From assembly GCA_027405735.1 (NCBI GenBank), contig JAPEHQ010000003.1, positions 62,001 through 126,000 on the forward strand: a stretch of 64,000 nt of DNA, written 5' to 3'. The stretch is from Mucor racemosus. Its lineage: Eukaryota; Mucoromycota; Mucoromycetes; Mucorales; Mucoraceae. The stretch's first letter is position 1. Every line of letters starts with the position of its first letter. The notes under the pieces were generated by a model, which was not told where the DNA came from, made no database searches, and worked only from the letters and a program-made list of their open reading frames with translations. The position numbers and the translations under genes were made by a program. This document shows positions 3,441 to 62,720 of this stretch, piece by piece.

Positions 3441-3455
3441 TGCGTTTAAACAAAA

Positions 3456-5646
3456 CTACAACAAAGAAGGAGAAGGCGAATAAAACTGGCATTTCTTTAG
3501 AATTTGTTTACCAGGGCAACTGTACACGTTATCAAAATTAAACTTTTCACATCTGAAGCACTTTTTTCCTAGATTTTCTAGTTTTCTTTTTTTACGACCA
3601 GTGGCACATTGTTCTGGATTAAAAATGTAGTGTGGCCTAATAGGTTCAGGAGGTACCAGCAAGCCATGAGTTTTCTTATTAGTAATTAAATTAGTTGGAG
3701 TTCTGGCTGCATTTGATGATTGTCGAGGTGATATATTAGCTAGGCGAGAAAGCGACACAGGAGGATTTACTACAACAACTAGACAATCAGCAGGGTCCAT
3801 AGTTACGAGAGCTACACTAATTTCTGGCACATTTTTTGACGTCTTGGTGCCGTTACAATAAGTATTATTATTCTGAGGTTTGCTGTAGAATAATTCAAGT
3901 AACTGTGGAAGCTTGCAATAGTCTGTAGAAAATTTATCTTCTCCCAATGCTTCATTAACTGTATTACATCTTAGACACCATTCTTTTGCCATCTCAACAA
4001 AATGAGATTTTGCTCTGCTATATAATTCTAGTTCATTATTATAAACTTCTTCCCAAAACTTATCTTACTCTTTTTTGGTATGAATGGAGGTAGCCAGATA
4101 CTTTGTGCCTTGTATGTCGGCTGTTATGTCAATACTCATCCTATGTCTCACATCCAAGGTCACAGTCTATAATTAGTGTTACAGTAAATCAATGTGGATC
4201 ATTGACTTACATCATATTCTTAGATAGTAAAACCCTAGTAATAGTTATAATTAATGTATATAAATACATCCAAGGGATGTATTGTTAATAAAAGTGCAAT
4301 ATTCTGGCAAGATTATTTATATAGACTCTTTTGACATTTCATCGGCCAAGTACTGCTAATAGGTTGTTGATAACTTTTTTCTACGAATACATAGATACTA
4401 TGGGCAATACACAGAGTTGCAATACGTCTTCAACCAAAGAAGTAGAAATTAACCAGCGATTGCTGCTTTTATTACTGGGAATAATTTTCAGATGTCTAAT
4501 GGTGAATTCAAGCACAGGACAGATACCGAAAAACTCGTCAACCGGGAAAGTTGTAAATGGCCGTGCTGCCAGGATCATAATATGACCATTTTACAGTTAA
4601 ACCGACCAAGTTCATTCTTCAAGTGATTAATACCTTGAACAAGCCAGGGGTTGTAGTGGCTTTTATGTATAATATTATATCTATTGAGTGAACCCACCTA
4701 TTCAAATAAATGTTATTAATTAAAGCATTATGAGAATATAATAGTACTTACATTGGTATTGCGCCTGAGACGATAATTTGCCAACAAGCAATCCATGAGC
4801 CTTGGGGATGCGTTGTACATGGAAAACTTGCGTATAATATTCGTGTGAACACCTTCTTCTAAACTGTTGGTGCCACAAATACATCTGCAGTATATACTGT
4901 ACTGGCAAAGCAAGATCGTTGACATATCAAACGTAGTAGAGAGGTACACCCACAACAGGATCCGATACATGTCCTTTTTTTGTCGCTTCCAAGGTTTTTT
5001 TTGCCTGAGCCTTGTTGCATGCATTATCAAATAAAGGTTGTCCACTCTTTGCGCTCACAGCATTTCCTAGATCCTGGAAAAGCTTTTCACCACAAGTAGT
5101 AACTCATTTGAATGTGGGATTGTCCTTCTTCTTCTTACTCGCATTGCTATCCAACCTGGGCTTTCTCTGATCACTTTACCCCACGTAGTTTTCTGGTGCT
5201 GAAGGGCTTTGCTCACTCTTTTCTTGTCATTCTAGCTTGTTACAAACAGGGCATCGCTAAAACGAGCCATAAATACTTGTTGAGCACCATGCTTCTCGGA
5301 AATTGGAAGCGAATCCATCAAATGAAAAGCATCCTTCAAAACTAAAGTTGGTAAGGTTGAATTATTATCCATTAGTGGATCCTTTTTTGTAGGAAAAAGT
5401 TTGGTTGTCTTCAAGCAACTGGATTGTATGTGCATTGTTGTGATGTTGTCCTGTGCACCAAGGCCAGAAAAAGTTCTAATAAGCCTCTTTGAAATTCTTT
5501 TTTTGCCATGTTGTTGACAAACTGGTGCCAAAGCATCATCAGATGAGAAAACCTTCAAAATTTTAACCTCAACACAACGTGTGCATTTAATAGAACTATG
5601 AATAATAGGAGTACCCAAGATCTCTGAAATTGCTAACTGTTTACCG
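3456..5646 (-). pseudogene. Broken transposon-derived gene, interrupted at its 5' end by a CACTA-like terminus
   Basis: Several frames on the minus strand form one decayed gene in collinear order. 5232-5640 has CTRC and 'VLKDAFHLMDSLP' with 'FMARFSDALF'. 4728-5045 has 'CGTNSLEEGVHTNIIRKF' and 'ASPRLMDCLLANYRLRR'. About 4381-4578 has 'FFGICPVLEFTIRHLKIIP'. 3456-3992 has 'FSTDYCKLPQLLELFY' and a C-terminal Cys cluster, 'CFRCEKFNFDNVYSCPG', possibly zinc-binding. These phrases resemble a widespread unnamed transposon-associated family in fungal genomes that I recall, but the assignment needs a search. The frame changes between pieces, and reading upstream it meets a stop exactly where the CACTACGG terminus at 5647 begins. 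The N-terminal half is missing. Confidence 0.55.
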
Positions 5647-9180: not shown

Positions 9181-10860
9181 CGACCTAGTTAAATGGAACC
9201 AGTCAATTTAATTCATGGACTTTGAATGAAAATAACGAAGAACCATTTGCAAGTACTTAAGTGGATTTTGGTAAAGTATTGTTGAATAAATTGGCTTGGG
9301 ACAAAGAGAATAAAAAGGCAGAAATAAATTCCAGTGGCGCCCATGTTTATGTTTATAACATTGGAGAGGTAAGACTACTAAACCTTAATGTAAACCATCT
9401 TTAGCGCAATAATTATAAAGTAAGAATATATTATCATCAAATAAACTACCATAAAACAACATGTGTAAAGATTTATAGCAATAAGCTTGAATCAAGTGGG
9501 TATTACAGCATCGTAAATTTTTGAAAAAGCTCCCAAGTATTATAAAATCTCTTATTTTTAAGGCTTACAAGGCCTATAAGCGGAATATTAATTTCAAAAA
9601 TTATTCTTGTCCAAATCATCAATTTTGACATTTTTTAATTTTTTTTTTCTGATTTAGCAAATCTAAAGTTGATTATACTACCAATCATAAAAACAAAAAA
9701 TCTACACATATACAACATTTAGCGCTCTATTTGTCCAATAAAAAATATACAGTATTTTTATTGCAAAATATTACATGAAAATCCTTTAATCAAAAAACCG
9801 TTTTTGGGCCAAAAGTACAAAGTTTCATTACTTAATATTTAATATTAAGCTTTTATAAAGTGTCTATTATCCATAGCTACAATTTTCTCTCATAATATAG
9901 TATATTTAAACGTTGATTTTGGTATCAAAATTTGGTTTTTCTGTTTTTTGACCAAAATCATGAGTGTTGGTAAGGGTAAAATGAGCCCCAAAAAATGTCC
10001 GCTACAAAGTCTGAATTTTCAGACCGTACGTGGGCAAATATAAGAAAAGTTGAAAAAACCGCTTTTTTATTTAAAACTTTGATATATACCATAGTATAAG
10101 AGACTTAGCCGTTCAACCTTGCTACAGTATGCTCAATTACGACGTTGATCTGCGGGATCATTTTTGCAATTTTTCAACGAATCTATGATATGACAGACGG
10201 TTTTTCTGGTAAAAAAAATGCATGTTTCTATGATAACAGATATTGCCTATTTTATTTAGATTATAGTTCATGCGCTTTAATGCTACTTCTACATTGGCTG
10301 AAATGAGCAATTTAGCAGGGTTTTAATTGCGCTAAATACTGTAAAGCCTTGAAAATCCTTTTCTAGGTGTGCTATTTCTCTCATTTTGTTTTCACATTCC
10401 AAGAATATATTTGCCGTTTGATAAGGCATATCAGACTATCAAGCTGGTACTCTTTTGTTTTATCTGAATACGCATTCAAACATAAGGGGCTAAAGTTTTT
10501 AATACAGGTAGCAGTCTATATTCGAAACTAGTATTTTAATTTAAATGCATTCTAAGATCAAATAGCATTATTTACTACTGCATCGTTGGACGTATTTCTT
10601 GATTACCAGATCAAATTGAAGGCAATGATATTTATATCTACTCAACAAAAAGGTAAAACTAGTTACAAACCCACAAAATGTTCCAGAAAAGTGATTAAAT
10701 TTCAAATGATATAGAAACAAAAAAAAAACAAAGAATAATCTAATGTTTTGCCTAATAACCATAGTTTTGATCGTAGCTACTGTATACTTGAAAACAAATC
10801 TTTTTACAGCTGACAATCGTAAACTAAAATAGTAAGCTTAAAGAAGGTTAATTTGTTTAA
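9181..10860 (+). mobile_element. Element A, copy 2 (partial, inverted relative to copy 1)
   Basis: It starts within the captured dynein exon. About 9193-9370 translates with stops to a degraded 'KLAWDKENKK' and 'VYVYNIGE' followed by GTAAG. It continues through the conserved core (9.56-10.09 kb) to about 10,860. From 9344 to about 10,345 it is almost the exact reverse complement of 6770-7770. Both termini are absent. Confidence 0.65.
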
Positions 10861-20194: not shown

Positions 20195-21290
20195 CCATAG
20201 GTTGTCGCGAATGGTTTTAGATGCTTTTCGAATTTCTTCGCCCAATATTGAATCGAATTGCATTAAATCATTAAATCTCTAAAGGCGATGTACCTCATTC
20301 CACAGGCCATTGATATCTTTTCGAAAATAAAAGAATTAATACCAGAGTATAAGTGCGCTTGATTTATTGAGACTTTGTAAATTAAAATCAACGTAAAAAG
20401 TACCGTTTCTTAGAATAAATTAAATATGGGTTTTTATAGTTATTGGAATTGTGTGATAAGATCTAATAGACAGGGATCTATTAGATGTGACAATAGATAT
20501 TATTATTAATGTGTATGGATATAATATATTATGTTTCAGTGGTAATATTGCTATAAGTTATGTTTCATTATTAGTTCCTAAATGACAGGAACCAGTTACT
20601 GGATAGATAAGATCTGCTAGATCTGTCGGAGATCTTCTATATATTGAATGTTGTAATTCTGATAGATCAGCGCTGACTTAACATTTGACACTGGACTAAA
20701 AGTGACCTAAAACCAATTGTAGAAATTAGGCACTTAAATTGAGGTATTATTTTTTGTATATTTAAGTTACGTCTAACTACAAGCTACTCTGCATTTTTTG
20801 TTTCAGCGAAAAATATCGATTTTTCGTCGAGGAAATCAAAATAATGGTTCACATTACAGCTTAAAGCCTATGCCAACTGGGTTCCAAAATTCATCTGTGA
20901 AATCGATCAAAAAATGATTCAAAAAACAAAATTGTTTAATGGCTCATAAACTGCAAAGTAAGTCGACCTAGTGTATTAAATAGTTTTTGTGCAGTTTTGG
21001 ATTCTGCATCCATCTAAATAAAAATTAGACAAACATTCCACATTAAATTGTGCGTAAAATGCAACTGAAATTTACAAGGTTTTTTGAAGATATACATCAC
21101 TTTTTATAATTACATTTTACATTTAAGTAATGGACATAATGTACAAAAACATTATCTATCGGTCGAGCTATTGCTGAACCTTCCAACTGCATTTTTCGTA
21201 GAGAAAACCAGGTTTTTGTCAATTTTTTTTTCAAATTCAGAATTTGGGATGAGGGTATACAAGGGGAAAATGGAAGCTACACATCCAGGG
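20195..21290 (-). repeat. Repeat B, copy 3, interrupted by a putative solo LTR
   Basis: It aligns in the same orientation as 29,179-30,050, including 'TTCGCCCAATATTGAAT', 'GATATCTTTTCGAAAATA' and 'ACAAGGGGAAAATGGAAGC'. It is split by about 264 bp of unrelated DNA (20,452-20,715) and stops near 21,290, lacking the distal part present in copies 4 and 5. Confidence 0.7.
20452..20715. mobile_element. Putative solo LTR (TSD ATTG or AATTG)
   Basis: Relative to repeat B copies 4 and 5, this block is an insertion. It starts TGTGATAAGATC and ends CTAAAACCA. It is flanked by ATTG on both sides (20,448-20,451 and 20,716-20,719), or AATTG if the last base is given to the duplication. It contains several AGATCT palindromes. 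No retrotransposon coding part is present. Confidence 0.45.
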
Positions 21291-25059: not shown

Positions 25060-28000
25060 ACTGCAAAATTAATCCCATGTATGCATAATGGTAGAATTGC
25101 CCATAAGCATATCATTATCCCTATTTGTGCATAATAATAAAATCTGACCATGAGCATAATGAGCTGATCGTATGGACACAAATTGGTTTGTACATGAGCA
25201 TTGTGGCGCTCTTAAAATTCCATTGCATTTTTTACTACAATGGGTTTTTAAATTTCATTTGCTTTTATTAATATAGATTATGGACAATAATACAATTCAA
25301 TACGTTGTTGATGTAGAGCAATACATGGAAGAGCCAATATATTTACGATTATTATCATCTGACATTTGTAAATATGTTTATAGCTATTATAATATTTATA
25401 GTAATAATGGTTTTTGCTCAAACATAAACTTAAATAGCCCTTACTGCTTAAATTTATATGCAAGCCAAATCTAAGATTATATATGTTACTTTATCACTCA
25501 TAAAGTTTAAGCAAATTAGTCTTCTTTAAACTTTTACTACTATTTTAGTTTAGGATTGTCAGTTATAAAAAGGTTTGTTTTCAAACATAGCTATGATCAA
25601 TATTATGGTTATTAGACAAGGCATTAGAGTATTCCTTTTTTTTTTGTTTCTATATCATTTGAAATTTTACCACTTTTCTGGAACATTTCATGGGTTTGTA
25701 ACTAGCTCTACCTTTTTATTGATTAGATATAAATATCATTACCTTCGATTTGATCTGGTAATCAAGAAATACGTCCAACAATACAGTAGTAAATAATGAT
25801 ATCTAATCTTAGAATGCAGCTGAATGAAAATATCAGTCCTTTATGTTAGCATGCGTATTCAGATAAAAGAAAAGAATATCATTGATAGTCTGATATTTCT
25901 TATCAAACGGTGAATATATCCTTGGAATATGAAAACAAAATGAGAGAAATAACACATGTAGAAAAGGGGTTTCAAGGCTTGACATTATTTAGCACGATTA
26001 AAACACTGCTAAATTGCTCATTTAAGCCAATGTAAAAGCAATATTACAGCGCATAAACCGTAAAGTAATAAACAAAATAGGCAATATCTGTTATCATAGA
26101 AACATACATTTTTATACTACCAGAAAAACCGTCTGTCATATCATATATTCATTAACAAATTGCAAACACGAGCCCGTAGAGCGATGCCGTAATTGAGCAT
26201 AACACGATCGAACGGCTAAGTCTTTTATACTATGGTAAATATCTAAGCTTTAAATGAAAATGCGTTTTTTTTTTTTACTTTTCTTATATTTAACCATGTA
26301 CGGTCTGAAAATTCAGTTTTTGTAGCGGACATATTTCGGGACTCATTTTATCCTTACCAACACCCATGATTTTTATCAAAAAACAGAAAAATTAAATTTT
26401 GATACCAAAATCAACGTTTAAATATACTACATTATGAGAGAAAATCGTAGCTATGACTAATACACATTTTATGAAAGCTTAATATTAAATGTTAAATAAT
26501 GAAACTTAGCATTTTTGGCCCAAAAACGGTTTTTTGATTAAAGGATTTTCATGTAATGTTTTGCAATAAAAATGCTTATTATTTTTTATTGAGCAAATAG
26601 AGCGCTAAATTCTGTATATGTGTATATTTTTTGTTCTTATAAATGGTAGTTTAATTAACTCTAGATTTGCAAAACCAAAAAAAAAAATTTAAAAAATGTC
26701 AAAATTGATGATCTGGACAAGAATAATTTTCGAAATAAATATTCCGCTTATAAGCTCTGTAAGTCTTAAAAATAAGAGATTTTACGATATTTGAGAATTT
26801 TTCAAGAGTTTACGATGTTGTACCCACTTGATTCAAGCTTATTACTGTAAATCTTTATACATGTTAATATTATGTGATAGTTTATTTGATGATAATATAG
26901 ACTTACTTTATAATTATTGCGCTAGAAGTGATTTACATTAAGATTTAGTCTTACCTCTCCAATATCATAAACATAAAAATAAACTTGGCCTTCACTAGAA
27001 CCTATTGCCGCCTTTTTACCCTCTTTATCCCAAGCCAGTTTATTCAATGCTTTACCAGAACCAACTTGAGTACTTACAAATGGTTCCTCAGTATATGCAT
27101 TCAAATTCCATAAATTAAATTAATTGGTTTTATTTACACTACTATCAAACGTATCATCAGCCCGCTTTATGATAAATGCCAATCTAAAATCAGAAACATC
27201 CCATTGTCATTGTTGTAAGCTATAAAAAGCTTGATTTTTAATATTACAACAATCAAATAAGAAACAAGATGATACTACTAATAGCACATGGTGAGTATTT
27301 AACATCTAAGTAAGTTTGATGAAATATACTTTTAAACCCTTTTAAAAATTCTGAGGCAAATACAACATCTTGATCGTCCTGTAATTTCTATCCTCCATCA
27401 AAATGTTGCAATTTCCACTACACAATGAATGTACATTAGGTATCAGTTTTTTAACAGTTGTGTTGTTTTCTCTGATTCATTAATATTCAGTCATATTGAA
27501 CAATGATTTGTAGCATTGCCAAAAAAGAAAGGGATAAATGCTTCAAGAGTAGTTTTCTGTATATAAAATTATGCGATTTAATAGCAATGATTACACTTAA
27601 CTATGCTTATTGAATCTATTGATGTTAATCAGAATAATCAGTACTTTCATGCAAAAGTAAGCTTTGCTTTATACATTTACATTCACCATTTCAATAAATG
27701 ATATTGAATTTACTATCCGTTATATCAATCAACCGATTTCATCTTGATTCGATACATTTGGCAATTAAATACCTAAATTACTGCACTTGAGTCACCAGAT
27801 ATTGCCACAAACAAATATCGTACAGGTCGGCGAAACATTACAATTTGGATCATTTTTTTGTGTTCATAGATCTGAGCTCTCTCACACATTTATAGATTTC
27901 TGTATAAACCATATCTCTATCTGTTGTTCCATTTAACTGAAATACATTGAAGATCAACATTGTACTCCATAAAACGCCTTATTACTTTATTGCGAGTCAA

Positions 28001-29178
28001 CACAGCTAATTTAATGCTAGTTTAGCATCAGGCCATCAGCAGTTGAATTAGATAAATTTGAGATTAGACAACCCCTTTCAATAGTTTTGCATACCATGAG
28101 CTAAGAATGGACCGTTATTATAGATACGCTAATCAAGGATGGCGGGCTAACTCTAATGGACGAACGAGTCGATGTAGCATTATAAACGAAATATTAAAAT
28201 CAAATATTGTAATCGAATAAAAAAGAGATAATAAATCATGTAAATTAGCATGATCGAACTGTTTCAAGCGTTTTAAACTAAATAAACCTTTACTTTTGAC
28301 CTATAAAAGTTGATCTATTAGTAAAATCAATTCACAAGTAATGATTCTGGTGTACCTTTGAGAGCTGGTAGTGGTATACAAAACAACGTCTTGTTTTCCT
28401 ATTCTTGGCTGTTGGCCAACTAAACAGATTAACATGCGTATATTATTCATTCATTTAAATCAAGTCGATACTATACATACTTTTATAATCACCAGTTTTT
28501 TTGCAGGTATATATCGATTTTAGACCAAAAAAGCATTGATTGTAAAGTAGATGATGGAACAAAATGACTATGTAGACTTGGATGATGTTTTTTTTGTTCG
28601 AGAAAATATTATAACATGCCTTAACATTAATAGTCAATAATTCATTTCCAAATAAACAATAGAAAAAACATGTACTTGTACCTGCTACTTGATTTAAGTT
28701 TATAAAAAATATTGGTATTTTTGCTGTAGTTTTAAACATAAATAAAAGAGCCGAGGAAAGAGTGGGGAAGAAAAACGAAAAATAATCCTAAATCAGTCGA
28801 TTTTGTGCGTTACAAACAGAAATTTGCAAATGCACAAATACTTTTAGTGTTGCCAAACAGGTTGTTGTCGTTGTTCCCATTTGGTTCCCGAAAGAAGAAG
28901 AACATGGGCAGAACTCTTTCAAACCCCAAATTTCAAATTGATAGATCTCGTCAATGAAGCAATTCTGTTGAATTAGAGTAACTTACATCTGCTTTAAACC
29001 GCTCAAATTATCTTTGTTATTAATTATATTATGATTGATATACTTTAGTAAATTGTCTAAAAAACTTTGATCTCATCGCTCTGCTCATTTGAGCTGCCTG
29101 ATCGACACAAATTTTCTTATTCTGCCCATTTGTGCAGATCATCATGCCCATGGCAAGCATAGTTCGGCCGTAGTGAAG
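25060..29178 (-). mobile_element. Element A, copy 3 (left arm of the large inverted repeat)
   Basis: The terminus at 29,166-29,178 reads TTCGGCCGTAGTG, the reverse complement of the CACTACGGCCGAA start of copy 4. Nearby are the subterminal phrases CCCATTTGTGCAG and CATGCCCATGGC. Going left it holds a 94-codon frame (28,455-28,739), the captured dynein exon, the conserved core and a partial subterminal zone ending near 25,060. The second terminus is absent. From about 26,900 rightwards it is nearly identical to the reverse complement of copy 4; further left the two copies diverge gradually. Confidence 0.75.
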
Positions 29179-30460
29179 GCTTTTGTTATCGATTTTTTAC
29201 GGTTGTAAAAAGTAGGTTTCAGATGGTTTTTAAATGGTTTTTAAATGGTTTTCGAATGTTTTCGTCCAATATTGAAATGAATCGCGAAAATCCTTCAAAG
29301 ACGATGTGTCTTTCCTCCATAGGTCATTGATATCCCTCGAAAAATAGAAATACTAATACAAAAATATAAGTGCAATACAACTGTCCAAACATTGACTTAA
29401 AATTGATTATAAAAAATTGAGCATCTAAACTGGGATGTTATTTTTTTGTATTTTCAAGTTAGGTCCCACTAAAAGCTACTCTGCATTTTTTGTTTCATTG
29501 AAAAATATTGATTTTTGGTCGAAAAAATCAAAATAATAGTTCACATTACAGCTTAAAGCCTATGCTAACTGGGTTCCAAAATCGATCAATGAAATCGACC
29601 AAAAAATGAATCAAAAACCAAAATTGTTTAATGGCTCATAAACGGCAAAGTAAGTCGACCTAGTGTATTAAATAATTTTTGTACAGTTTTAAATTTTGCA
29701 TCTATCTACATAAAAATCAGACAAATATTCCACATTAAATTGTGCGTAAAATGCAAATGAAATTTTAAAGGTTTTTTTGAAGATATACATCACTTTTTAT
29801 AGTTACATTTTAAATATAAGTAATGGGAATGATGCACAAAAGCATTATCTATCGATTGAAATATTGTTGAACCTTCTAGCTGCATTTTTCGTAGAGAAAA
29901 CGAGATTTTCTTCAATTTTCTTTTCAAATTCAGAATTTGGGATGAGGGTATACAAGGGGAAAATGGAAGCTAGAAATGAAGGTATCTTTTTGTACACATT
30001 TTTGCGGATATCTCCACGAAAAATCAATATTTTCAAAAAAACTAACTTGGGTCCGAGAGAGCTTAACGAGCTTAATGACATTAATGTAAAAAAAATTTTG
30101 TTTAATTTAACCAATATTTTGAAACCTACTATAGAAATGCTAAAATAATGAAAAAAAATAAAAGTGCTCAGAATTTTTTTATATTGAAATATGTTATAGA
30201 GCACATCAAAACAAGTAAGCTTCATTATTAGAAAGCGTTAGAATAGCTTAATTTTTTGCTAAGATACGGAAGCTCAAAGTTTTCATTTTTTAACAGCGAA
30301 ATACGTGTAAAAGTCTGAAACATTAGCGCTGAAAAATTAATACCACCTGCAAAAAGTAGGATATTTTTGGATACTCATTTCTGGATTAAATTTGGTCATC
30401 TCAGGTACATTGGATTATAATTTTTTCTTAGTGTTATTTAGTAAAAAAAAAAAGTAGAGC
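26900..30460. repeat. Large inverted repeat, left arm (partner 40,350-43,915)
   Basis: Matching landmarks in the two arms have a constant coordinate sum of 70,814 (26,922+43,892; 28,455+42,359; 29,777+41,037). Over about 3.5 kb there is therefore no net insertion or deletion. Identity is close to complete in the inner 2.5 kb and falls outwards. Confidence 0.9.
26955..27115 (-). pseudogene. Captured dynein intermediate chain WD40 exon (copy 3)
   Basis: The minus strand translates 'NLWNLNAYTEEPFVSTQVG', then 'SGKALNKLAWDKEGKKAAIG' and 'SSEGQVYFYVYDIGE', followed at once by a GTAAG donor. This closely resembles the last WD40 repeats of cytoplasmic dynein intermediate chain (LWNLN, ALNK..W, G.S.G.V.IYD.GE). 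A duplicated Val-Tyr-Phe-Tyr lies near the end. The upstream 'DGT..QF' part seen in copies 5 and 6 is degraded here. It is a lone exon inside a repeat, so it is classed as a fragment. Confidence 0.7.
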
Positions 30461-30545
30461 AAGGATGAAAAGTGAGACCTAGTTCCCAAGGAAAAAACGG
30501 GGAACTTTACGTGTTTTTGAGGCTTTGATGAGATATAAAGCAAAT
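29179..30545 (-). repeat. Repeat B, copy 4 (inner part of the left inverted-repeat arm)
   Basis: It directly abuts the CACTA-like end of element A copy 3. Up to about 30,460 it is nearly identical to the reverse complement of 40,350-41,638. It contains an open frame at 29,777-30,148 (123 codons) and an overlapping reverse frame of 126 codons; both are identical in the other arm. Homology to the other arm fades by about 30,530. Confidence 0.8.
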
Positions 30546-31098
30546 CTAGGAACAGGTATATAGCATGATTTCTGATTTTGATATGATATATGCAGAATAA
30601 ATCGATTGTATTATAATAAAAAATAAACAGTTTATCCTATTCCTATGAATCAAATAAACAAAGCTAAAAATACTCCAATCATTTAGACATGTCTTCCTAC
30701 GAATACTCCTTTACCTTTATGATAAATCCATCTTCTGGTAACTGGCAGCAACATCTTTGACGTCAATATATAATAAATTCGGGCCAACAATTTAATTTGA
30801 CCATGGATTACTGATAAAAAGTACATTTTGAGTATTTGCGTGAATTAGTACTATGCTTGAAGCACTTCAAGCTTGTAAGCTTTGCAATACCTGAAAACAA
30901 TTACAAATGTTCCAAAAAACCTTTCCAACGTCTATTATTACCCTTCAGCCAGCTCAATTCCTTACCAATTTGTTCTAAAGCAAGCTTTTTTCAAAAAAAA
31001 ATTTTTTTTTTTCTTTACACATTCGAGAATACTCCAAGCAAGGTTTTCTTCGCTAGACTATTTCAACCGCTTTTAAGATAATCAGAAGGATATTATAA
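30546..31098. other. Intergenic with weak coding potential
   Basis: This is unique sequence just inside the inverted repeat. A frame at 30,836-31,081 includes a poly-Phe artefact over a T tract; I see no reliable gene. It may hold an upstream exon of the small hypothetical ORF that follows. Confidence 0.3.
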
Positions 31099-38682: not shown

Positions 38683-40259
38683 ATTATTACCCTTCCTTCC
38701 TTAATACTATAAATATTTAATAAATAAACTCATTTCTGCATTGTATAAAATCAAAGAAACCATCGTACATTTTGAGTAGGTTTAATTCAAAAATTACTGC
38801 CCTAAATGAAGAAAAACCTCGATAGTCTGTTAAACATGATTACCAGACTACAGAAAATACAATGAGTAAGATCAAAGCAACTACCTCAACCTTTCCTTTT
38901 GTCCTTGTCTAGCGCACCATTTTGACAACAAGTGAAAAAGATTAGGTCAGCCCAAATGGGCTGATTATGCCCAAAAGGACAGACAATTAAAGTAAATCTT
39001 TGAATGGATAGTCATCCTCAATCTCAATTAATAAAAGCATGTATATAATTCTTTATAAACTCAAGTATATTAACATGGTCTTTTTTATTGGAATTTTCAA
39101 AACTCGCAAAGGCCATTATTGATCAAAAAAAGTGTTGACCCAAAAGGGCCGAATAATTTATTTGATAATCATTTCATAAAATAATCGACAGATAGCCCCA
39201 ATTTTTAATTCTGTTTAAAAGATTAAAAAAGACCATCGACAGAGACGCTTTCTTCTTCTTTTAATGCTTTTTTTTTTTTTTTTTTTTTTTTTTGTATTTA
39301 TCAAATGCATTTCGTAGAGAGAGATTTATTATTTATAAAAATCGGCCCAAATGGGCTGATCCAACTAATCTCCTCCTATTAATTGTTAATTGGATAACGG
39401 ATATTCAAACTAAAGCATTCGATTGGAACAAATGCACCAATAAACGCTCTCCAATATTTTGGAATTCGCCTTGATTTTTCATTCTTTTGAAAGGATCAAA
39501 ATGTGAAATTTTCATTGAGTGGTTTGTAAATAGCAAAATTTTTCTATTCTATTCGGTTAATTACGCCAATTAATGACTTTTCATTTAATTATGTGAGTAT
39601 ACTTGTTGAATCGTTGAACAGCACAAAATTATATATGTGAAACAATTCACCAGTGGGTATCTAATATTAGCTATTCGGCTAGATTAAATATGCCAATGAA
39701 AGCGTCATAATGTGAGTCTTCCTCAACTACACAACGGATTTTAAGACCTTAAGCATGGTGCATTTTTATAGATTAGACAATGGATATAACTTTCAAAAGA
39801 TATAATTGGTGCAGATGAACAAATAAATGCTCTTCATTAACCAGCGCGCGTTGTATTCATCTTCTGGACTGAAAGAGTTGTTGAAAAAACACAAAATTAT
39901 ATGTGTAATAATTGACTAACGAGTATTTAATATGTAGTTTACCTCTATCACATAACAATACATTTTAGGTCCTTAAATAGTTGGATCTCACAAAAAATTA
40001 GACATTTACTGCTTTTTCACATTTAACAAGTCGATATAGTTTCCTGCTTGCCTTACTTTTCAATTGATAGCAACAAGATAAATTATACATAAGCGTACGG
40101 GAGATGGTTCAAGTTTTCACTGCTAAAAAGAAAATCTTCAAAATCGGAGCATGCATTCTATTCTATAACTAATGTCATACTAAGCACGTTTTAGGATATA
40201 CCTTAGACACTGGTAAATAAATATAAATTGGCTATATTATTTTACCTGTTCCTAATTTT
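38683..40259. other. Intergenic with short palindromic repeats and a T tract
   Basis: Downstream flank of the transporter gene. CAGCCCAAATGGGCTG (near 38,948) and CGGCCCAAATGGGCTGAT (near 39,344) are near-perfect palindromes, and CCCAAAAGGGCC occurs at about 39,140, so a small family of hairpin-like motifs is present. A run of about 25 T lies at 39,268-39,293. No gene is recognised. Confidence 0.45.
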
Positions 40260-41638
40260 ATTTTACGTCTCACAAAGCCTCAAAAACACGTAAAGTTCCC
40301 CATTTTTTCCTTGAGGACTAGGTCTCACTTCTAGGTCTCACTTTTCATCCTTGCTCTGCTTTTTTTTTTTTACTAAATAACACTAAGAAAAAATTATAAT
40401 CCAATGTACCTGAGATGACCAAATTTAATCCAGAAATGAGTATCCAAAAATATCCTACTTTTTGCAGGTGGTATTAATTTTTCAGCGCTAATGTTTCAGA
40501 CTTTTACACGTATTTCGCTGTTAAAAAATGAAAACTTTGAGCTTCCGTATCTTAGCAAAAAATTAAGCTATTCTAACGCTTTCTAATAATGAAGCTTACT
40601 TGTTTTGATGTGCTCTATAACATATTTCAATATAAAAAAATTCTGAGCACTTTTATTTTTTTTCATTATTTTAGCATTTCTATAGTAGGTTTCAAAATAT
40701 TGGTTAAATTAAACAAAATTTTTTTTACATTAATGTCATTAAGCTCGTTAAGCTCTCTCGGACCCAAGTTAGTTTTTTTGAAAATATTGATTTTTCGTGG
40801 AGATATCCGCAAAAATGTGTACAAAAAGATACCTTCATTTCTAGCTTCCATTTTCCCCTTGTATACCCTCATCCCAAATTCTGAATTTGAAAAGAAAATT
40901 GAAGAAAATCTCGTTTTCTCTACGAAAAATGCAGCTAGAAGGTTCAACAATATTTCAATCGATAGATAATGCTTTTGTGCATCATTCCCATTACTTATAT
41001 TTAAAATGTAACTATAAAAAGTGATGTATATCTTCAAAAAAACCTTTAAAATTTCATTTGCATTTTACGCACAATTTAATGTGGAATATTTGTCTGATTT
41101 TTATGTAGATAGATGCAAAATTTAAAACTGTACAAAAATTATTTAATACACTAGGTCGACTTACTTTGCCGTTTATGAGCCATTAAACAATTTTGGTTTT
41201 TGATTCATTTTTTGGTCGATTTCATTGATCGATTTTGGAACCCAGTTAGCATAGGCTTTAAGCTGTAATGTGAACTATTATTTTGATTTTTTCGACCAAA
41301 AATCAATATTTTTCAATGAAACAAAAAATGCAGAGTAGCTTTTAGTGGGACCTAACTTGAAAATACAAAAAAATAACATCCCAGTTTAGATGCTCAATTT
41401 TTTATAATCAATTTTAAGTCAATGTTTGGACAGTTGTATTGCACTTATATTTTTGTATTAGTATTTCTATTTTTCGAGGGATATCAATGACCTATGGAGG
41501 AAAGACACATCGTCTTTGAAGGATTTTCGCGATTCATTTCAATATTGGACGAAAACATTCGAAAACCATTTAAAAACCATTTAAAAACCATCTGAAACCT
41601 ACTTTTTACAACCGTAAAAAATCGATAACAAAAGCCTT
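40260..41638 (+). repeat. Repeat B, copy 5 (inner part of the right inverted-repeat arm)
   Basis: Reverse complement of copy 4. Near 40,319-40,345 a 15-bp tandem duplication (TCTCACTTCTAGG...) distinguishes it from the left arm. It ends exactly where the CACTA-like terminus of element A copy 4 begins. Confidence 0.8.
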
Positions 41639-43915
41639 CACTACGGCCGAACTATGCTTGCCATGGGCATGATGATCTGCACAAATGGGCAGAATAAGAA
41701 AATTTGTGTCGATCAGGCAGCTCAAATGAGCAGAGCGATGAGATCAAAGTTTTTTAGACAATTTACTAAAGTATATCAATCATAATATAATTAATAACAA
41801 AGATAATTTGAGCGGTTTAAAGCAGATGTAAGTTACTCTAATTCAACAGAATTGCTTCATTGACGAGATCTATCAATTTGAAATTTGGGGTTTGAAAGAG
41901 TTCTGCCCATGTTCTTCTTCTTTCGGGAACCAAATGGGAACAACGACAACAACCTGTTTGGCAACACTAAAAGTATTTGTGCATTTGCAAATTTCTGTTT
42001 GTAACGCACAAAATCGACTGATTTAGGATTATTTTTCGTTTTTCTTCCCCACTCTTTCCTCGGCTCTTTTATTTATGTTTAAAACTACAGCAAAAATACC
42101 AATATTTTTTATAAACTTAAATCAAGTAGCAGGTACAAGTACATGTTTTTTCTATTGTTTATTTGGAAATGAATTATTGACTATTAATGTTAAGGCATGT
42201 TATAATATTTTCTCGAACAAAAAAAACATCATCCAAGTCTACATAGTCATTTTGTTCCATCATCTACTTTACAATCAATGCTTTTTTGGTCTAAAATCGA
42301 TATATACCTGCAAAAAAACTGGTGATTATAAAAGTATGTATAGTATCGACTTGATTTAAATGAATGAATAATATACGCATGTTAATCTGTTTAGTTGGCC
42401 AACAGCCAAGAATAGGAAAACAAGACGTTGTTTTGTATACCACTACCAGCTCTCAAAGGTACACCAGAATCATTACTTGTGAATTGATTTTACTAATAGA
42501 TCAACTTTTATAGGTCAAAAGTAAAGGTTTATTTAGTTTAAAACGCTTGAAACAGTTCGATCATGCTAATTTACATGATTTATTATCTCTTTTTTATTCG
42601 ATTACAATATTTGATTTTAATATTTCGTTTATAATGCTACATCGACTCGTTCGTCCATTAGAGTTAGCCCGCCATCCTTGATTAGCGTATCTATAATAAC
42701 GGTCCATTCTTAGCTCATGGTATGCAAAACTATTGAAAGGGGTTGTCTAATCTCAAATTTATCTAATTCAACTGCTGATGGCCTGATGCTAAACTAGCAT
42801 TAAATTAGCTGTGTTGACTCGCAATAAAGTAATAAGGCGTTTTATGGAGTACAATGTTGATCTTCAATGTATTTCAGTTAAATGGAACAACAGATAGAGA
42901 TATGGTTTATACAGAAATCTATAAATGTGTGAGAGAGCTCAGATCTATGAACACAAAAAAATGATCCAAATTGTGATGCTTCGCCGACCTGTACGAGATT
43001 TGTTTGTGGCAATATCTGGTGGCTCAAGTGCAGTAATTTAGGTATTTAATTGCCAAATGTATCGAATCAAGATGAAATCGGTTGATTGATATAACGGATA
43101 GTAAATGCAATATCATTTATTGAAATGGTGAATGTAAATGTATAAAGCAAAGCTTAGTTTTGCATGAAAGTACTGATTATTCTGATTAACATCAATAGAT
43201 TTAATACGCATAGTTAAGTGTAATCATTGCTATTAAATCGCATAATTTTATATACAGAAAACTACTCTTGAAGCATTTATCCCTTTCTTTTTTGGCAATG
43301 CTACAAATCATTGTTCAATATGACTGAATATTAATGAATCAGAGAAAACAACACAACTGTTAAAAAACTGATACCTAATGTACATTCATTGTGTAGTGGA
43401 AATTGCAACGTTTTGATGGAGGATAGAAATTACAGGACGATCAAGATGTTGTATTTGCCTCAGAATTTTTAAAAGGGTTTAAAAGTATATTTCATCAAAC
43501 TTACTTAGATGTTAAATACTCACCATGTGCTATTAGTAGTATCATCTTGTTTCTTATTTGATTGTTGTAATATTAAAAATCAAGCTTTTTATAGCTTACA
43601 ACAATGACAATGGGATGTTTCTGATTTTAGATTGGCATTTATCATAAAGCGGGCTGATGATACGTTTGATAGTAGTGTAAATAAAACCAATTAATTTAAT
43701 TTATGGAATTTGAATGCATATACTGAGGAACCATTTGTAAGTACTCAAGTTGGTTCTGGTAAAGCATTGAATAAACTGGCTTGGGATAAAGAGGGTAAAA
43801 AGGCGGCAATAGGTTCTAGTGAAGGCCAAGTTTATTTTTATGTTTATGATATTAGAGAGGTAAGACTAAATCTTAATGTAAATCACTTCTAGCGCAATAA
43901 TTATAAAGTAAGTCT
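40350..43915. repeat. Large inverted repeat, right arm (partner 26,900-30,460)
   Basis: It spans repeat B copy 5 and the first 2.3 kb of element A copy 4. The arms differ by scattered substitutions, mostly transitions in what I compared (for example GATGCTTCGCC here against AATGTTTCGCC in the left arm), and these become denser towards the outer ends. Confidence 0.9.
43700..43859 (+). pseudogene. Captured dynein intermediate chain WD40 exon (copy 4)
   Basis: The translation is the same as in copy 3 except for Gly to Arg in the final 'YDIREV'. It is open from NLWNLN to the GTAAG donor. Upstream, where copy 6 has 'TVDGTGQFDLW', this copy has a stop (CCAATTAA). Confidence 0.7.
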
Positions 43916-45698
43916 ATATTATCATCAAATAAACTACCACACAATATTAACATGTATAAAGATTTACAGTAATAAGCTTGAACCAAGTGGGTACAACATC
44001 GTAAACTCTTGAAAAATTCTCAAATATCGTAAAATCTCTTATTTTTAAGACTCACAGAGCTTATAAGCGGAATATTTATTTCGAAAACTATTCTTGTCCG
44101 GATCATCAATTTTGACATTTTTTAAATTTTTTTTTTTGGTTTTGCAAATCTAGAGTTAATTAAACTACCATTTATAAGAACAAAAAATATACACATATAC
44201 AGAATTTAGCGCTCTATTTGCTCAATAAAAAATAATAAGCATCTTTATTGCAAAACATTACATGAAAATCCTTTAATCAAAAAACCGTTTTTGGGCCAAA
44301 AATGCTAAGTTTCATTACTTAACATTTAATATTAAGCTTTTATAAAGTGTGTATTAGTCATGGCTACAATTTTCTCTCACAATGTAGTATATTTAAATGT
44401 TGATTTTGGTATCAAAATTTGATTTTTCTGTTTTTTGATCAAAATCATGTGTGTTGGTAAGGGTAAAATGAGTCCCCGAAAAATGTCCGCTACAAAGTCT
44501 GAATTTTCAGACCGTGCATGTCTAAATATAAGAAAAGTTGAACAAAAACGCCTTTTTATTTAAAACTTATTAGATATACCATAGTTATAAGAGACTTAAC
44601 AATTCAATCTTGCTATGCTCAATTACGGCGTCGTTCTACGGGCTTGCTTTTGTAATTTTTAATGAATGTATGATATGATAGACGGTTTTTCTGGTAACAT
44701 AAATGTATGTTTCTTTGATAACAGATAATGCTTATTTGTTTAGTTTATGGTTTATGTGCTGTAATACTGCTTTTACATTGGATGAAATGAGCAATTTCCA
44801 ATTTAGCAGGGTTTTAACTACGCTAAATAATGTAAAATTTTGAAAATCTTTTTCTACGTGTGTTGTTTCTCTCTTTTTGTTTTCATATTCCGAGGATATT
44901 ATTCATCGTTTGATAAGGCATATCAGACTATCAAGCTGGTACTCTTTTGTTTTATCTGAATACGCATTCTAACGACATAAAAAACTAATGTTTTTAATAT
45001 AAGTAGCAGCCTATATTAGAGACTCATATTTTCATTTAACTGCATTCTAAAATCAAACATCATTACTATATTTACTACTATATTGTTGGACGTACTTCTT
45101 AATAATTACCAGATCAAATCGAAGGCAATAATGATATTTATATCTACTCAATAAAAAGCTACGACTGGCTACAAACCCACAAAATGTTCCAGAAAAGTGA
45201 TAAAATTTCAAATGATATAGAAACAAAAATAAAAAAAGGAAAATCTGATGTCTTGTTTAATAACCATGGTTTTGATCGTAGCTTGTATACTTGAAAACAA
45301 ATCTTCTTACAGCTGACAATCGTAAACTAAAATAATAAGTTTAAAGGAGGTTAATTTGTTTACATTTTATGAGTGATAAAGTAACATTTAAAACCTTAGA
45401 TTTGGCTTGCATATAAATTGAGCAGTAAGTGTTATTTAAGTTTATGATCGAGCAAAAACCATTGTTGCTGTAAGCATTATTATAGCTATAAACATATTTT
45501 CAAATGATGCTAATTGTAAATATATTGGTTCTTGCATGTATTGCTTCCCTACATCAACAACGTATTGAATTATACTATTATCTATAATCTATATTAATGA
45601 AAGCAAATGTGATTTAAAAACCCATTATTACAGTAAAAAATGCAATGGAATTTTGAAAACGGCACGATGATCATATACAAACCAATTTGTGCCCATAC

Positions 45699-46062
45699 TG
45701 ATGTATCATTCTTAAACCGGATTATGTCAAATCCAAAAAAGTAAACAATAACAGATCCGGAACCGGAAGTTCCTTAATTAAATATTAATTATACAATGCT
45801 CCTAAAAGCATGGTATAGAAGCATGGTATAGAAGCATGGTATAGAAGCATGGTACAAAAGCATAATACGCCAGTGCGATATTCCAACATGATATACCAAC
45901 ATGACACATTACTATTAAATAACATCTAAACTACCCTACCACACCATTAATTCCTCAAATCAAATAGTATATAAACCCTATTAATTTCATTCCAATAAAC
46001 GATATCTCTTTACTTGATTAAATTTCTAATTTTATTTAACCTAAACATATTTTGATAAATCA
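45699..46062. mobile_element. Solo LTR with 5-bp TSD (CATAC), inside element A copy 4
   Basis: Compared with copies 1 and 3, the subterminal sequence ...CCCATAC/GATCA... is split here by 364 bp. The insert begins TGATGTATCA and ends TGATAAATCA (TG...CA). CATAC stands on both sides (45,694-45,698 and 46,063-46,067). Inside are TATATAAACCC (about 45,969) and CCAATAAACG, as expected for an LTR promoter and polyA signal, and a 13-bp tandem repeat. No internal retrotransposon remains. Confidence 0.8.
45807..45858. repeat. 13-bp tandem repeat, four units
   Basis: AGCATGGTATAGA occurs three times perfectly and a fourth time as AGCATGGTACAAA, inside the solo LTR. Such U3-region minirepeats can be enhancer-like; that role is inference. 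Confidence 0.85.
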
Positions 46063-46371
46063 CATACGATCAACTCATTATGCTCATGGTCAGATTTAAT
46101 TATTATGCACAAATAGGGTTGTTAATGATATGCTTATGGGAAATCCTACTACTATGCGCACATGAGATTAATGTTACGCACATAGACAGAATCTATAATT
46201 CTGCACATACAGGCTTAGCGTTGTTGTGCTCGTGTGCAGTTTCTTTTGTTGCGCCCATGTGCATATTGTTATCTTTTTAACCATATTCAGCAGACACAAC
46301 AGTTTAGGCTATAGTGTGCAGCCCACCTAGTCACAGCGAAATCATCTTGTGCAGCACAGGCCGCCGTAATG

Positions 46372-47880
46372 TGCACTCATTGCTATTAAATCGCATAATT
46401 TGACATGCATGCAGAAAACTCTTGAAGAATTTATTCTTTTTTTTTTTGGCAATGCTACAAATCATTGTTCAATATGACTGAATGTTAATGAATCAGAAAA
46501 AATAATACAACTGGTAAAAAACTGATACCCAATGTATATCGAGGGCAAGATAGATAAAAGATGCATTCATTGTGTAGTAGAAATTGTAACGTTTTGATGG
46601 ATAGAAATTACAGGACGACCAAGATGTTGTGTTTGCTCAGGATTTTTAAAAGGGTTTAAAAGCATGCTTTATCAAAATTACTATTTAGATGTTAAATACT
46701 CACCATATGCTATTGGTATCATCTTGTTTTTTATTTAATTACTGCAGTATTAAAAATCAAGCTTTTTATAGCTTACAGCTTACAACAATGACAATGGGAT
46801 GTTTCTGATTTTAGATTGACATCATCTATTATCATAAGGCGGGCTGATGATATGTTTGATACTACTTTAGATGGAACCAGTCAGTTTAATTTATGGAATT
46901 TGAATGCAAATACCGAGGAACCATTTGTAAGTACTTAATTTGATTCTGGTAAAGCATTGAATAAATTGGCTTGGGACAAAGAGAGTAAAAAGGTGACAAT
47001 AGGTTCCAGTGATGGCAATGTTTATGTTTACGATATTGGAGAGGTAAGACTAAAACTTAATGTAAATCACCTCTAGCGCAATAATTATAAAATAAGACTA
47101 TATTATCATCAAATAAACTACCACACAATATTAACATGTATAAAGATTCACAGTAATAAGCTTCTTGAATCAAGTGGATACAGCATCATAAATCCTTGAA
47201 AACGTTCTCAAGTATTATAAAATCTCTTATTTTTAAGACTTACGAGGCTTATAAGCGGAATATTAATTTAGAAAATTATTTTTGTCCAGATCATCAATTT
47301 TGACATTTTTTAATTTTTTTTTTCTGATTTTGCAAATCTAGAGTTAATTATACTACCAATTACAAAAACAAAAAATATACACATATACACAATTTAGCGC
47401 TCTATTTGATCAACAAAAAATAACAAACATTTTTATTATAGAATATTACGTGAAAATCCTTTAACCAAAAAACCGTTTTTGGGCCAAAAGTACAAAGTTT
47501 CATTACTTAATATTTAATATTAAGCTTTTATAAAGTGTGTATTATCTATAGCTACAATTTTCTCTCATAATGTAGTATATTTAAACGTTGATTTTGGTAT
47601 CAAAATTTGATTTTTCTGTTTTTTGATCAAAATCATGAGTGTTGGTAAGGGTAAAATGAGTCCCCGAAAAATGTCCGCTACAAAGTCTGAATTTTCAGAC
47701 CGTGCATGTCTAAATATAAGAAAAGTTGAACAAAAACGCCTTTTCATTTAAAGCTTAGATATTTACCATAGTATAAAAGACTTAGCCGTTCGATCGTGTT
47801 ATGCTCAATTACGGCATCGCTCTACGGGCTCGTTTTTGCAATTTGTTAATGAAGATATGTGTTTATATATTTTATAGAAT
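46372..47880 (+). mobile_element. Element A, copy 5 (partial, no termini)
   Basis: It begins within the element at the position equivalent to about 43,222 (ATTGCTATTAAATCGCATAA), immediately after the terminus of copy 4, as if copy 4 had inserted next to or into it. It contains the captured exon at 46,870-47,043, the core at 47,220-47,740, and ends near 47,880. Confidence 0.65.
46870..47043 (+). pseudogene. Captured dynein intermediate chain WD40 exon (copy 5)
   Basis: It translates 'LDGTSQFNLWNLNANTEEPF', a TAA after VST, then 'SGKALNKLAWDKESKKVTIG' and 'SSDGNVYVYDIGE' before GTAAG. It retains more of the 5' part of the exon than copies 3 and 4 but has a stop. Confidence 0.7.
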
Positions 47881-55662: not shown

Positions 55663-56199
55663 GTTTTGAGTTAAAAGTGTAATTTCAGGCCACATATGTC
55701 CATCAAGTTTAGTTTGCATGTATAAAAATGTGACGCTACAAAGAGTGGCTTGAATTGCATCTATGTGATTGATTACAGGCCCAGACAATTAGAGAACTGT
55801 CAAATACATGACAAAGGAAGAACTTACAGTAGCGACATGAGCCTTTCGAACCTTTTGTTTCGTTAAATCCCATAAGTAATATGCAATTTATTAAACACTC
55901 TTTATTGCGTCAAAGGTTCTCTGTTTGAATTTACGATGTTGGAGGGATGATAATATCTAAACATGGACTTAGACCCAATTGTAGCGACAGTAGTTTCAGC
56001 CAATATATAATACGATGCTCGATGTACTTTTCATTACATACGTCTGTTTGATTGAGCATATATAACGCCTTGAAATTTGCCATCTGGATATTGATCAATA
56101 GGGGGGTTTTTTTTTCAAAGTTTTCATTTTTTTGAAATCGAAGCGTAACTTATCTCCTTTTCTAAGACTAACGCAATACTAAGTACTTTTTGGGATACA
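55663..56199. other. Intergenic, upstream of DFR1
   Basis: Promoter side of DFR1. The DHFR frame remains open for 42 codons upstream of the chosen ATG, so a longer N-terminus cannot be wholly excluded. Nothing else is recognised. Confidence 0.4.
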
Positions 56200-57424
56200 A
56201 CTTAGATACTGTTAAACAGATATGAATTGGTTGCGTTATGTTACATATTCCTAAATTTATTTTATATCTCACGAAAGACTCAAAAACACGTAAATTTCAC
56301 TGTTTTTTCCTTGAAAACTGGGCCTCATTTTTTATCCCTGCTCTACTTTTTGTTTTCACTAAATAACACAAAAAACAAATTATATGCCAATGTACCTGAG
56401 ATGTCCAGCTTTAATCTAAAAACAAGTATCCGAAAATATCCTATTTTTTGCAGTTGGTATTAATTTTTTAATGCTAAGGTTTCGGATTTTTACGCGTATT
56501 TCACTGCTATAGGATTGAAAACTTTGAGGCTTCATATCTCTAGAAAAAATTAAGCTATACTAACACTCTCTAATAATGAAACTTACTTGTTTTGAAGTGC
56601 TCTATAACATGTTTTAATATAAAAAAATTCTGAGCAGTTTTATTTTTATTCATTTTTTTGGCATTTCTATAATAGGTTTCAAAATATTGGTTAATTTAAA
56701 CAAAATTCTTTTTACATTCATGTCATTGAGCTCGTTAAGCTCTCTCGGACCCAATTTAGTTTTTTTGAAAATATTGATTTTTCATGGAGATATCCGCAAA
56801 AATGTGTACAAAAAGATACCTTCGTTTCTAGCTTCCATTTTCCCCTTGTATACCCTCATCCCAAATTCTGAATTTGAAAAAAAAATGACAAAAATCTCGT
56901 TTTCTCTACGAAAAATGCAGCTAAAAGGTTCAGCAATATTTCAATCGATAGATAATGCTTTTGTGCATCATTCCTATTACTTATATTTAAAATGTAATTA
57001 TAAAAAGTGATGTATATCTTCAAAAAACCTTTAAAATTTCATTTGCATTTTATGCACAATTTAATGTGGAATATTTGTCTGGTTTTTATGTAGGTGGATG
57101 CAAAATTTAAAACTGTACAAAAACTATTTAATACACTAGGTCAACTTACTTTGCCGTTTATGAGCCATTAAACAATTTTGGTTTTTGATTCATTTTTTGA
57201 TCAATTTCATTACTACTACTGATCGATTTTGGAACTCAGTTATCATAAGATTAAGCTATAATATAAACTATTATTTAGATTATCTTGACGAAAATCAATA
57301 TTTTTCGATGAAACAAAAAATACCAAGTAGCTTTCAATTGGATTTAACTTGTTAATACAAAAAATTATTGCCGCAATTAAGAAGCTTAATTGTTACAATG
57401 GATTTTAGGATAATTTTTGGTATA
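56200..57424 (+). repeat. Repeat B, copy 6 (interrupted)
   Basis: It matches copy 5 (40,260-41,400) along its length with substitutions and small indels, including 'AAGCTCTCTCGGACCCAA' and the reverse-strand frame. It is interrupted at 57,425 by a solo LTR; a distal piece resumes at about 58,030-58,165 (ATGAGAAAATTCGAAACC). Confidence 0.75.
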
Positions 57425-61744: not shown

Positions 61745-61849
61745 ATGGTTCTTTTCTGGAACAATGTCTATGATTTTCTTCCTCCTCGTTTAAGTACAAG
61801 TGTTCCCAATTTTTTTACATGGTACTGTAGATGGAACCGGCCAATTTGA
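61745..61849 (+). pseudogene. Truncated N-terminal ORF cut by element A copy 6
   Basis: An ATG in good context (ACCATGG) opens 'MVLFWNNVYDFLPPRLSTSV' and 'PNFFTW', after which the sequence at about 61,818 switches to the captured dynein exon in another frame and the ORF ends at TGA. It could be the first exon of a gene destroyed by the repeat. The protein is not recognised. Confidence 0.3.
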
Positions 61850-62720
61850 TTTATGGAATTTGAATGCAGGTACAGAGGAATCACTTGCAAGTACTCAAGT
61901 TGGTTTTGGTAAAGCATTGAATAAATTGGCTTGGGATAAATAGGGTAAAAAGACAGCAGTAGGCTCCAGTGATGGCCACGTTTATATTTATGACATTGGA
62001 GGGGTAAGATTAAAGGTCAATGTAAATCAACTCTAGCGCGATAATTAAAACATATGACTGTATTGTCATTGAATAAACTACCGCACAGTATCAACAGGTA
62101 TAAAGATTTATAGTAATAGACTTGAATCAAGCGATACAGCATCGCAGATTTTTGAAAAAGTTCTCAAATATCGTAAAATCTCTAATTTTTAAGACTTACA
62201 GGGCTTATAAACGAAATATTAATTTCAAAAATTATTCTTTTCCAGATCATCAATTTTGACACTTTCCAATTTTTTTTTCTGGTTTTGCAAATTTAGAGTT
62301 AATTGTACTACCAATCATAAAAACAAAAAATACTTACATGTACAGAATTTAGCGCTTTATTTTTTTAATAAAAAATAAAAAATATTTTTATTGCAAAATA
62401 TTGCATGAAAATTCTTTAATCAAAAAACCGTTTTTGGGCCAAAAATGCTAATTTTTATTACTTAACATTTAATATTAAGCTTTTATAAAATGTATATTAG
62501 TTATTGCTACAATTTTCTCTCACAATGTAGTATATTTAAACGTTGTTTTTGGCATCAAAATTTGATTTTTCTGTTTTTTGATCAAAATCATGAGTGTGGG
62601 TAAGGATGAAATGAGTCCCGAAAATGTCCGCTACAAAATCTGAATTTTCAGACCATACGTGGTTAAATATAAGAAAAGCTATAAAAAACGCCTCTCTATT
62701 TAAAATTTGGATATATTATT
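61818..62720 (+). mobile_element. Element A, copy 6 (dynein exon plus conserved core only)
   Basis: It contains only the captured exon (61,829-62,003) and the conserved core (62,160-62,690), with no termini. The exon reads 'TVDGTGQFDLWNLNAGTEES', 'STQVGFGKALNKLAWDK', a TAG, 'GKKTAVGSSDGHVYIYDIGG', then GTAAG. It is the copy closest to a genuine dynein intermediate chain, preserving 'VDGTGQFDLWNLN'. Confidence 0.65.

Follow-up and report, generated by a model that had tools for sequence, protein, structure and literature searches.

Gene-fragment capture by transposons has been described best in plants and, among fungi, for the Helitrons of Dikarya; gene-capturing Helitrons reportedly also occur in Pleurotus. 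CACTA (En/Spm) elements are marked by termini beginning CACTA, a 3-bp target-site duplication and a CACTA transposase, and Helitrons by a 5' TC, a 3' CTRR, insertion between A and T with no target duplication, a hairpin near the 3' end and a Rep/helicase. Here we analyse a stretch of 64,000 nt (the window, positions 62001-126000 of contig C3 in a genome of 53.2 Mb and 54 contigs, to which all genome-wide counts refer) and, within it, a non-autonomous element with CACTA-like inverted termini at 41639-46371 (+), which holds a fragment of the dynein intermediate chain gene. The fragment represents a real and strongly amplified gene-fragment capture. Its kind is known, and what is unusual is the copy number, an apparent two-step carriage and an anomaly at synonymous sites: one piece of a conserved gene seems to have travelled through two unlike carriers and now stands at about 1,600 copies that can still be recognised, most of them broken, in an early-diverging fungus.

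The relevant passages of one article attribute to rice more than 3,000 Pack-MULEs with fragments of more than 1,000 genes, describe gene-capturing Helitrons in maize and Brassica, and report for maize, from small RNA and methylation data, a conflict over small interfering RNAs (siRNAs) between captured fragments and their donor genes (PMC13317346). Portions of two others put the transposon content of Mucor genomes at 5-37%, with Helitrons as the main kind in one species (PMC7011435), and mention numerous Helitrons in these genomes (PMC7928374). Our literature search returned no report linking Mucor, dynein intermediate chain and a transposon. The present element resembles the Pack-CACTA and other Pack-type terminal inverted repeat elements of plants in its CACTA-like inverted termini, the lack of a visible transposase, the host fragment inside it and its many copies. 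It differs from Pack-CACTA in that no 3-bp target duplication was found and in that the fragment appears to have come pre-processed from another element. Unlike the rice Pack-MULEs, it presents a single fragment in very many copies.

The window element and its termini

The window element, copy C, begins with CACTACGGCCGAACTATGC at 41639-41657 (+) and closes with ...GGCCGCCGTAATG at 46371. Its right terminus (46353-46371, -) is degenerate, with a reverse complement that starts CATTACGGCGGCC, and the two ends are inverted termini of the CACTACGGCCGA type, beginning CACTA. An earlier interpretation made from the letters alone (the sequence-only reading) had placed the ends at these same points, and they hold: related copies end there too, and the 19-nt terminus CACTACGGCCGAMCTRTGC has 488 exact occurrences genome-wide (reversed control 0), an undercount since copies have drifted. 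Apparent short repeats close to the termini were noted by eye. The same left end is found in seven other fetched loci (L015, L045, L063, L069, L070, L071 and L072), with a left-like end in L073, and the flanks beside these ends differ from one another as judged by eye. Right ends adjoin several kinds of flank when ends with identical first 40 bases are counted once. The right ends of copy C, L003/L063, L013 and L016 are followed by identical internal element sequence, and L071, L072 and L073 have a common right flank (4168-4271, 3365-3461 and 1-106, respectively) together with differing left flanks, perhaps reflecting either a nested target or a larger unit. These shared flanks and internal sequences suggest that rearranged or nested insertions gave rise to some copies.

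The 3-bp target duplications expected of a CACTA element were not borne out. Neither a 2-bp nor a 3-bp duplication flanks any of the five elements with both termini (copy C and L070-L073), which are not fully independent, the right flanks of L071-L073 being alike; L069 was excluded from this comparison, one of its flanks being the inverted copy of the other. No open reading frame of at least 120 aa lies within 41639-46371, in agreement with the earlier statement that the element lacks a transposase, and no autonomous partner of it was found in the genome. Profile PF02992 (Transposase_21) gives two broken genome matches, L067 and L068, which are 97% identical, lie on different contigs, and have neither a terminus in common with the element nor any real similarity to it (19-24-nt matches only). 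The PF11540 profile search gave zero genome matches, but zero in controls too. Two 7.4-kb terminus pairs, L069 and L070, were considered as autonomous elements and rejected: the former is an almost perfect palindrome, and there is just one open frame of at least 90 aa in each (140 and 100 aa, respectively). Mobilisation would presumably depend on an autonomous partner.

The captured exon and the host dynein gene

Inside copy C, positions 43673-43859 (+) are a truncated second-last exon of a dynein intermediate chain gene, covering about codons 32-91 of the 91 found in the fuller type 2 form described below. The exon ends directly before GTAAGACT at 43860, which supplies its splice donor GT. 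This is followed by a remnant of the last intron (43860-43888, +), recognised by comparison with the host gene at L052 and with type 2 copies, which runs up to the junction of a deletion of about 330 nt, and then by a non-coding stretch from beyond the captured gene end (43889-44672, +), common to type 2 copies and the 3' flank of the host dynein gene. The sequence-only reading had proposed an internal dynein exon with its own splice donor, and both parts of this proposal stand: the peptide of 43695-43859 matches cytoplasmic dynein 1 intermediate chain 2 (E 5.7e-9), in its C-terminal part. Pfam gives weak WD40-like matches to this peptide, none above cut-off.

The host dynein intermediate chain gene lies at C4:386017-386874 (-) and extends further upstream. 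Towards its 3' end a short last intron separates the second-last exon from the last one, which codes VATPKPDDWSLLQKNISEMISNQENPNGAK. Among the scored matches only this place on C4 covers query residues 1-131, and no second complete gene was seen there. Over the WD region the host protein is 99% identical to that of Mucor velutinosus and 90% to that of Phycomyces nitens, and the former value points to a Mucor-like mucoralean host. Because the boundaries of the fragment fall inside an exon and an intron, the captured material was genomic DNA and not mRNA. As expected of a Pack-type element, copy C holds a host gene fragment with intron DNA and no transposase.

Amplification of the fragment is extensive. 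Allowing up to 3 mismatches, a 24-mer from the exon has 1,615 genome sites, where the host gene should account for 1, and a 24-mer from the downstream stretch has 2,338 (reversed control 0 in each case); the words are present in 48 and 49, respectively, of 49 aligned copies. We also considered the downstream stretch as an independent, older element without the exon, and rejected this. Of 20 downstream sites picked by hand, most of them not on the list of perfect exon sites, 17 are accompanied by dynein sequence (exon or intron by alignment at 15, and at L081 and L087 an intron remnant read by eye), the other three being uninformative. The remnant of L087 lies directly behind a CACTACGG right end.

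Three nested forms and a deletion shared by two of them

Copies of the fragment fall into three nested forms. Type 3 comprises the exon, last intron, last exon and 3' untranslated region (3'UTR). Outside the host gene, the stretch that types 1 and 2 have lost is found at 20 places, nearly complete at 15 and in part at 5 (69-88% identical), and among the matches listed the exon lies directly beside it at 12 of these places and 474 nt off at 1 more. Among the loci analysed apart from these places, this stretch is absent from all but the host gene. Type 2 (10 copies aligned) keeps all 91 exon codons or lacks the first few, and has the same junction as type 1; a CACTACGG-like terminus was found in none of 13 type 2 loci at up to 4 mismatches. 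Type 1 (39 truncated copies aligned, including the window's six, with arms of inverted pairs counted separately) keeps the exon from codon 32 or thereabouts, or from a later point, followed by 26-29 nt of intron and at once by the downstream stretch; its typical setting, as in the window, is a CACTACGG element.

At the junction of types 1 and 2, two near-repeats of 13 nt are joined, CAATGTAAATCAA from the intron and CAATATAAATCAA from about 330 nt further on, which indicates a deletion of about 330 nt between them. Since the type 3 stretch is present at 20 places and lacking elsewhere, the sampled type 1 and type 2 copies share this one deletion, and the nesting together with the shared deletion gives the order type 3, type 2, type 1. 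It follows that the CACTA-like element probably inherited an already processed fragment. Two copies connect the forms: L035 has the whole exon yet groups with type 1 in the tree, and L056 has nearly the whole exon and runs about 340 nt into type 1 sequence. The nested forms thus allow the steps to be ordered, with the exon serving as a tag of element origin. The sequence-only reading held that a CACTA-type element had captured the exon and spread it; carriage and spread are retained here, and the capture is not, given the whole-exon copies without CACTACGG termini.

Helitron-like ends and a probable history

The fuller copies have ends of another kind. Read in gene orientation, type 2 starts with CTAGCCGTT in 6 of 10 copies and finishes with TATTATAAGA or similar, so that on the opposite strand its ends read TC...CTAG. 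An A precedes and a T follows the element in all three copies with both ends readable (L035, L059 and L066, read by eye), with the last base of L035, a G, treated as a changed A; TC is present in two of the three, and CTAG likewise in two. These ends appear to resemble those of Helitrons. Like gene-capturing Helitrons, types 2 and 3 have ends similar to TC...CTAG with a putative A^T insertion, and captured flanking host DNA. They differ in having no clear hairpin, no Rep/helicase partner that we could find, and a fragment that was seemingly passed on to a second, unlike element. They also differ in a related repeat of up to about 260 nt on both sides of most type 2 copies, seen by eye before the exon in 9 of 10 and clearly after the downstream stretch in 7 of 10.

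The terminal repeat of type 2 elements also adjoins the host dynein gene downstream (L052, about 1-390). Its position there would be explained either by capture at this site or by a gene end that derives from an element. The same end downstream of the host gene is what read-through from an adjoining element would leave.

We consider it probable that the fragment was captured by a Helitron-like element, lost about 330 nt and then passed into a CACTA-like carrier with CACTACGGCCGA termini. A small Helitron-like, rolling-circle element would have read past its own terminus into the dynein intermediate chain gene and carried off the 3' end of that gene, from the second-last exon through the last intron and last exon to the 3'UTR, giving type 3. 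Loss of the DNA between the near-identical 13-nt repeats would then have joined the exon and the start of the intron to the downstream DNA, giving type 2. A type 2 derivative, truncated further, would have ended up within an element bounded by CACTACGGCCGA inverted termini, giving type 1, and this carrier would have yielded many of the present copies, so that the CACTA-like element would be a late carrier. What we infer from these forms is that read-through was the step of capture, how the fragment entered the CACTA-like element and what share of the copies each carrier made.

Several observations weigh against this history. Both ends are readable in only 3 of 10 type 2 copies, L059 can alternatively be read as a TTAA duplication, and the three termini folded have no common 3' hairpin. 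The single genome match to Helitron_like_N (PF14214) is a broken fragment with no real sequence link to these elements (19-24-nt matches only), and the two Transposase_21 fragments are as broken and as unconnected. The copies were chosen as best hits and not at random, the arms of inverted pairs are counted separately, and of the 39 truncated copies not every one need lie inside a CACTACGG element. Three of the 20 downstream sites (L079, L082 and L088) carry no dynein sequence and inform neither way, and the 5 partial places among the 20 of type 3 lower the odds of this history slightly. Finally, simple capture from the present host gene does not explain the divergence of the host exon at synonymous sites.

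Synonymous divergence of the host exon

The host exon and the type 2 consensus encode the same residue at 90 of 91 positions, and differ at 24 of 59.3 synonymous sites and 1 of 213.7 non-synonymous sites. At most of the differing synonymous sites the copies have one state and the host another; at one site the ten type 2 copies are evenly divided, five against five. Of 41 fourfold sites 17 differ, compared with 53 of 724 sites in the downstream non-coding stretch (Fisher p 9e-9), and the adjacent non-coding DNA of host and copies is 7-9% different. In the last intron the first 25 nt hold 5 differences and the remaining 34 hold 2; the last exon has 6 in 93 nt, of which 4 are synonymous (17.3 sites) and 2 non-synonymous, one of these not in L097; and the 3'UTR and what lies beyond have 17 in 185 nt. 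For the last exon, the 3'UTR and the later part of the intron, the comparison is with the majority of only three copies.

We further note that the host state at differing sites is carried by about 20% of copies in the downstream DNA and by 3-9% in the exon. In the tree of the downstream stretch, the host falls among type 2 copies with a branch of 0.09, against about 0.11-0.18 for most, at low support. These observations suggest that the host exon and its downstream DNA have different histories. The anomaly could come either from an alien donor combined with a 3' end that the host gene owes to an element, or from fast change of the host exon since capture. It lends itself to a direct test, being the trace either of horizontal transfer or of a gene that evades silencing driven by the exon taken from it.

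It is possible, and in our view the stronger of these explanations, that the fragment came from the dynein gene of another Mucor-like species or of a lost paralogue, and that an element copy later took the place of the 3' part of the host gene or was inserted there. This would account for the contrast between synonymous and non-synonymous differences, and is supported by the exons at all 13 type 3 places, which are nearer to the type 2 consensus than to the host. The first exon codon of the consensus is Ala as in M. velutinosus, where the host has Pro, and the type 3 last exon ends GGK, again as in M. velutinosus, where the host has GAK. The uneven last intron looks as if a breakpoint lay within it, and the downstream DNA of the host is within the variation of element copies, at low node support. 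However, two events are required, and the type 3 last exon has other residues in common with the host and not with M. velutinosus. Synonymous differences in the last exon (4 of 17.3) also exceed the downstream rate (p 0.04), which a breakpoint before that exon does not predict.

A less likely explanation is that the host's own gene was captured and that its exon has since changed faster at synonymous sites, for example by escaping small RNAs from the roughly 1,600 exon copies. In line with this, the excess over downstream DNA lies in coding sequence, and divergence is highest where all three forms overlap: synonymous differences number 18 per 38.0 sites there, 6 per 21.3 where types 2 and 3 overlap, and 4 per 17.3 in the last exon, which only type 3 has. 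Of the host 21-mers, 0 of 162 in the first part, 11 of 74 in the second and 313 of 718 downstream are present in any of the 49 copies. RNA interference is reported to act on transposon RNAs in Mucor lusitanicus (PMC11943222). Yet the synonymous gradient is within chance (p 0.18 for the first against the second part and 0.14 against the last exon) and the 3'UTR, which is mRNA too, has no clear excess with what follows it included, both of which lower the odds of small-RNA escape slightly, and a different donor gene would yield the same 21-mer result. As in the maize conflict, captured copies could feed small RNAs against their donor gene; here the signal is the synonymous divergence alone. We would regard as slightly more doubtful the specific proposal that such small RNAs select synonymous change in an essential motor gene, so that the captured exon would diverge several times faster than the DNA adjoining it.

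Direct capture by a CACTA element, as in Pack-CACTA, is improbable. Its inverted termini, the lack of a long open frame and the gene fragment inside agree with such an origin, but the fuller exon copies lie outside CACTACGG elements and have other ends, and a 3-bp target duplication is absent from all five elements examined. That the exon in the elements is still a working coding part under selection is very improbable: an open frame persists in several full-length copies and the type 2 consensus protein is nearly that of the host, but similarity-based picking of copies favours open frames, the ratio of non-synonymous to synonymous differences per site (pN/pS) against the copies' own consensus is 0.79 in the 10 type 2 and 0.65 in the 39 truncated copies, and the 49 copies hold 18 stop codons (4 and 14, respectively) beyond one more fixed in the truncated consensus itself. 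Decay is thus close to neutral even in a sample that favours well-preserved copies, and the copies do not look like working genes.

Other copies, inverted duplications and neighbouring repeats

The window holds five further exon copies, so that the recurrences previously listed at 7746, 9193, 26955, 46870 and 61829 are all real. One (46863-47043, +) lies within a partial copy at 46371-47859 that abuts the right terminus of copy C. Another (26955-27141, -) is in element B, an inverted duplicate of copy C with its left terminus at 29157-29175 (-). Element A, with a right-type terminus (CACTACGGCCGACCTGTGC) at 5647-5665 (+), contributes a copy at 9186-9368 (+) and, in its inverted arm, only about 50 nt of the exon end (7746-7795, -). 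No CACTACGG terminus was found near the copy at 61820-62003 (+), which groups with type 2 in the tree by its downstream stretch.

The arms 26338-30453 and 40361-44476 form a 4.1-kb inverted duplication with 99% identity, and the 9.9 kb that separates them holds other reading frames. The 7746 and 9193 copies lie at the ends of another inverted pair, with arms 6801-7773 and 9341-10313 that are 100% identical. Given these pairs, the six window copies amount to about four independent ones. Besides the window pair, 13 further pairs on the same contig have opposite orientation and equal score (counted by eye among 150 scored exon places), the spacing of inverted exon pairs being 2.8-24 kb, and one equal-score pair has the same orientation. 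L061 has arms of 4.1 kb that are 99.7% alike, and L069 arms of 3.2 kb that are 99.9% alike and run on past the termini. The inverted pairs look like inverted duplications rather than separate insertions, and the most perfect of them may yet be assembly artefacts.

Exact repeat words had 0 matches in the viral and bacterial or archaeal contigs scanned. Eight of 21 inspected exon-like short proteins (from 292) read like type 1, 2 or 3 copies (P0130, P0133, P0134, P0135, P0139, P0160, P0167 and P0229), and relatives of the element therefore seem to be present in other assemblies. Copy C also contains a solo long terminal repeat-like insert of 364 nt (45699-46062, TG...CA), flanked by CATAC on both sides and foreign to the element. 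A 99% identical copy of this insert lies in L012 (150-513), suggesting that it moved recently. A second repeat family occupies 2079-2953, 20690-21279, 29380-30558, 40158-41429 and 56157-57420, and some of its copies have a 130-aa open frame, for example at 40577-40969 (+).

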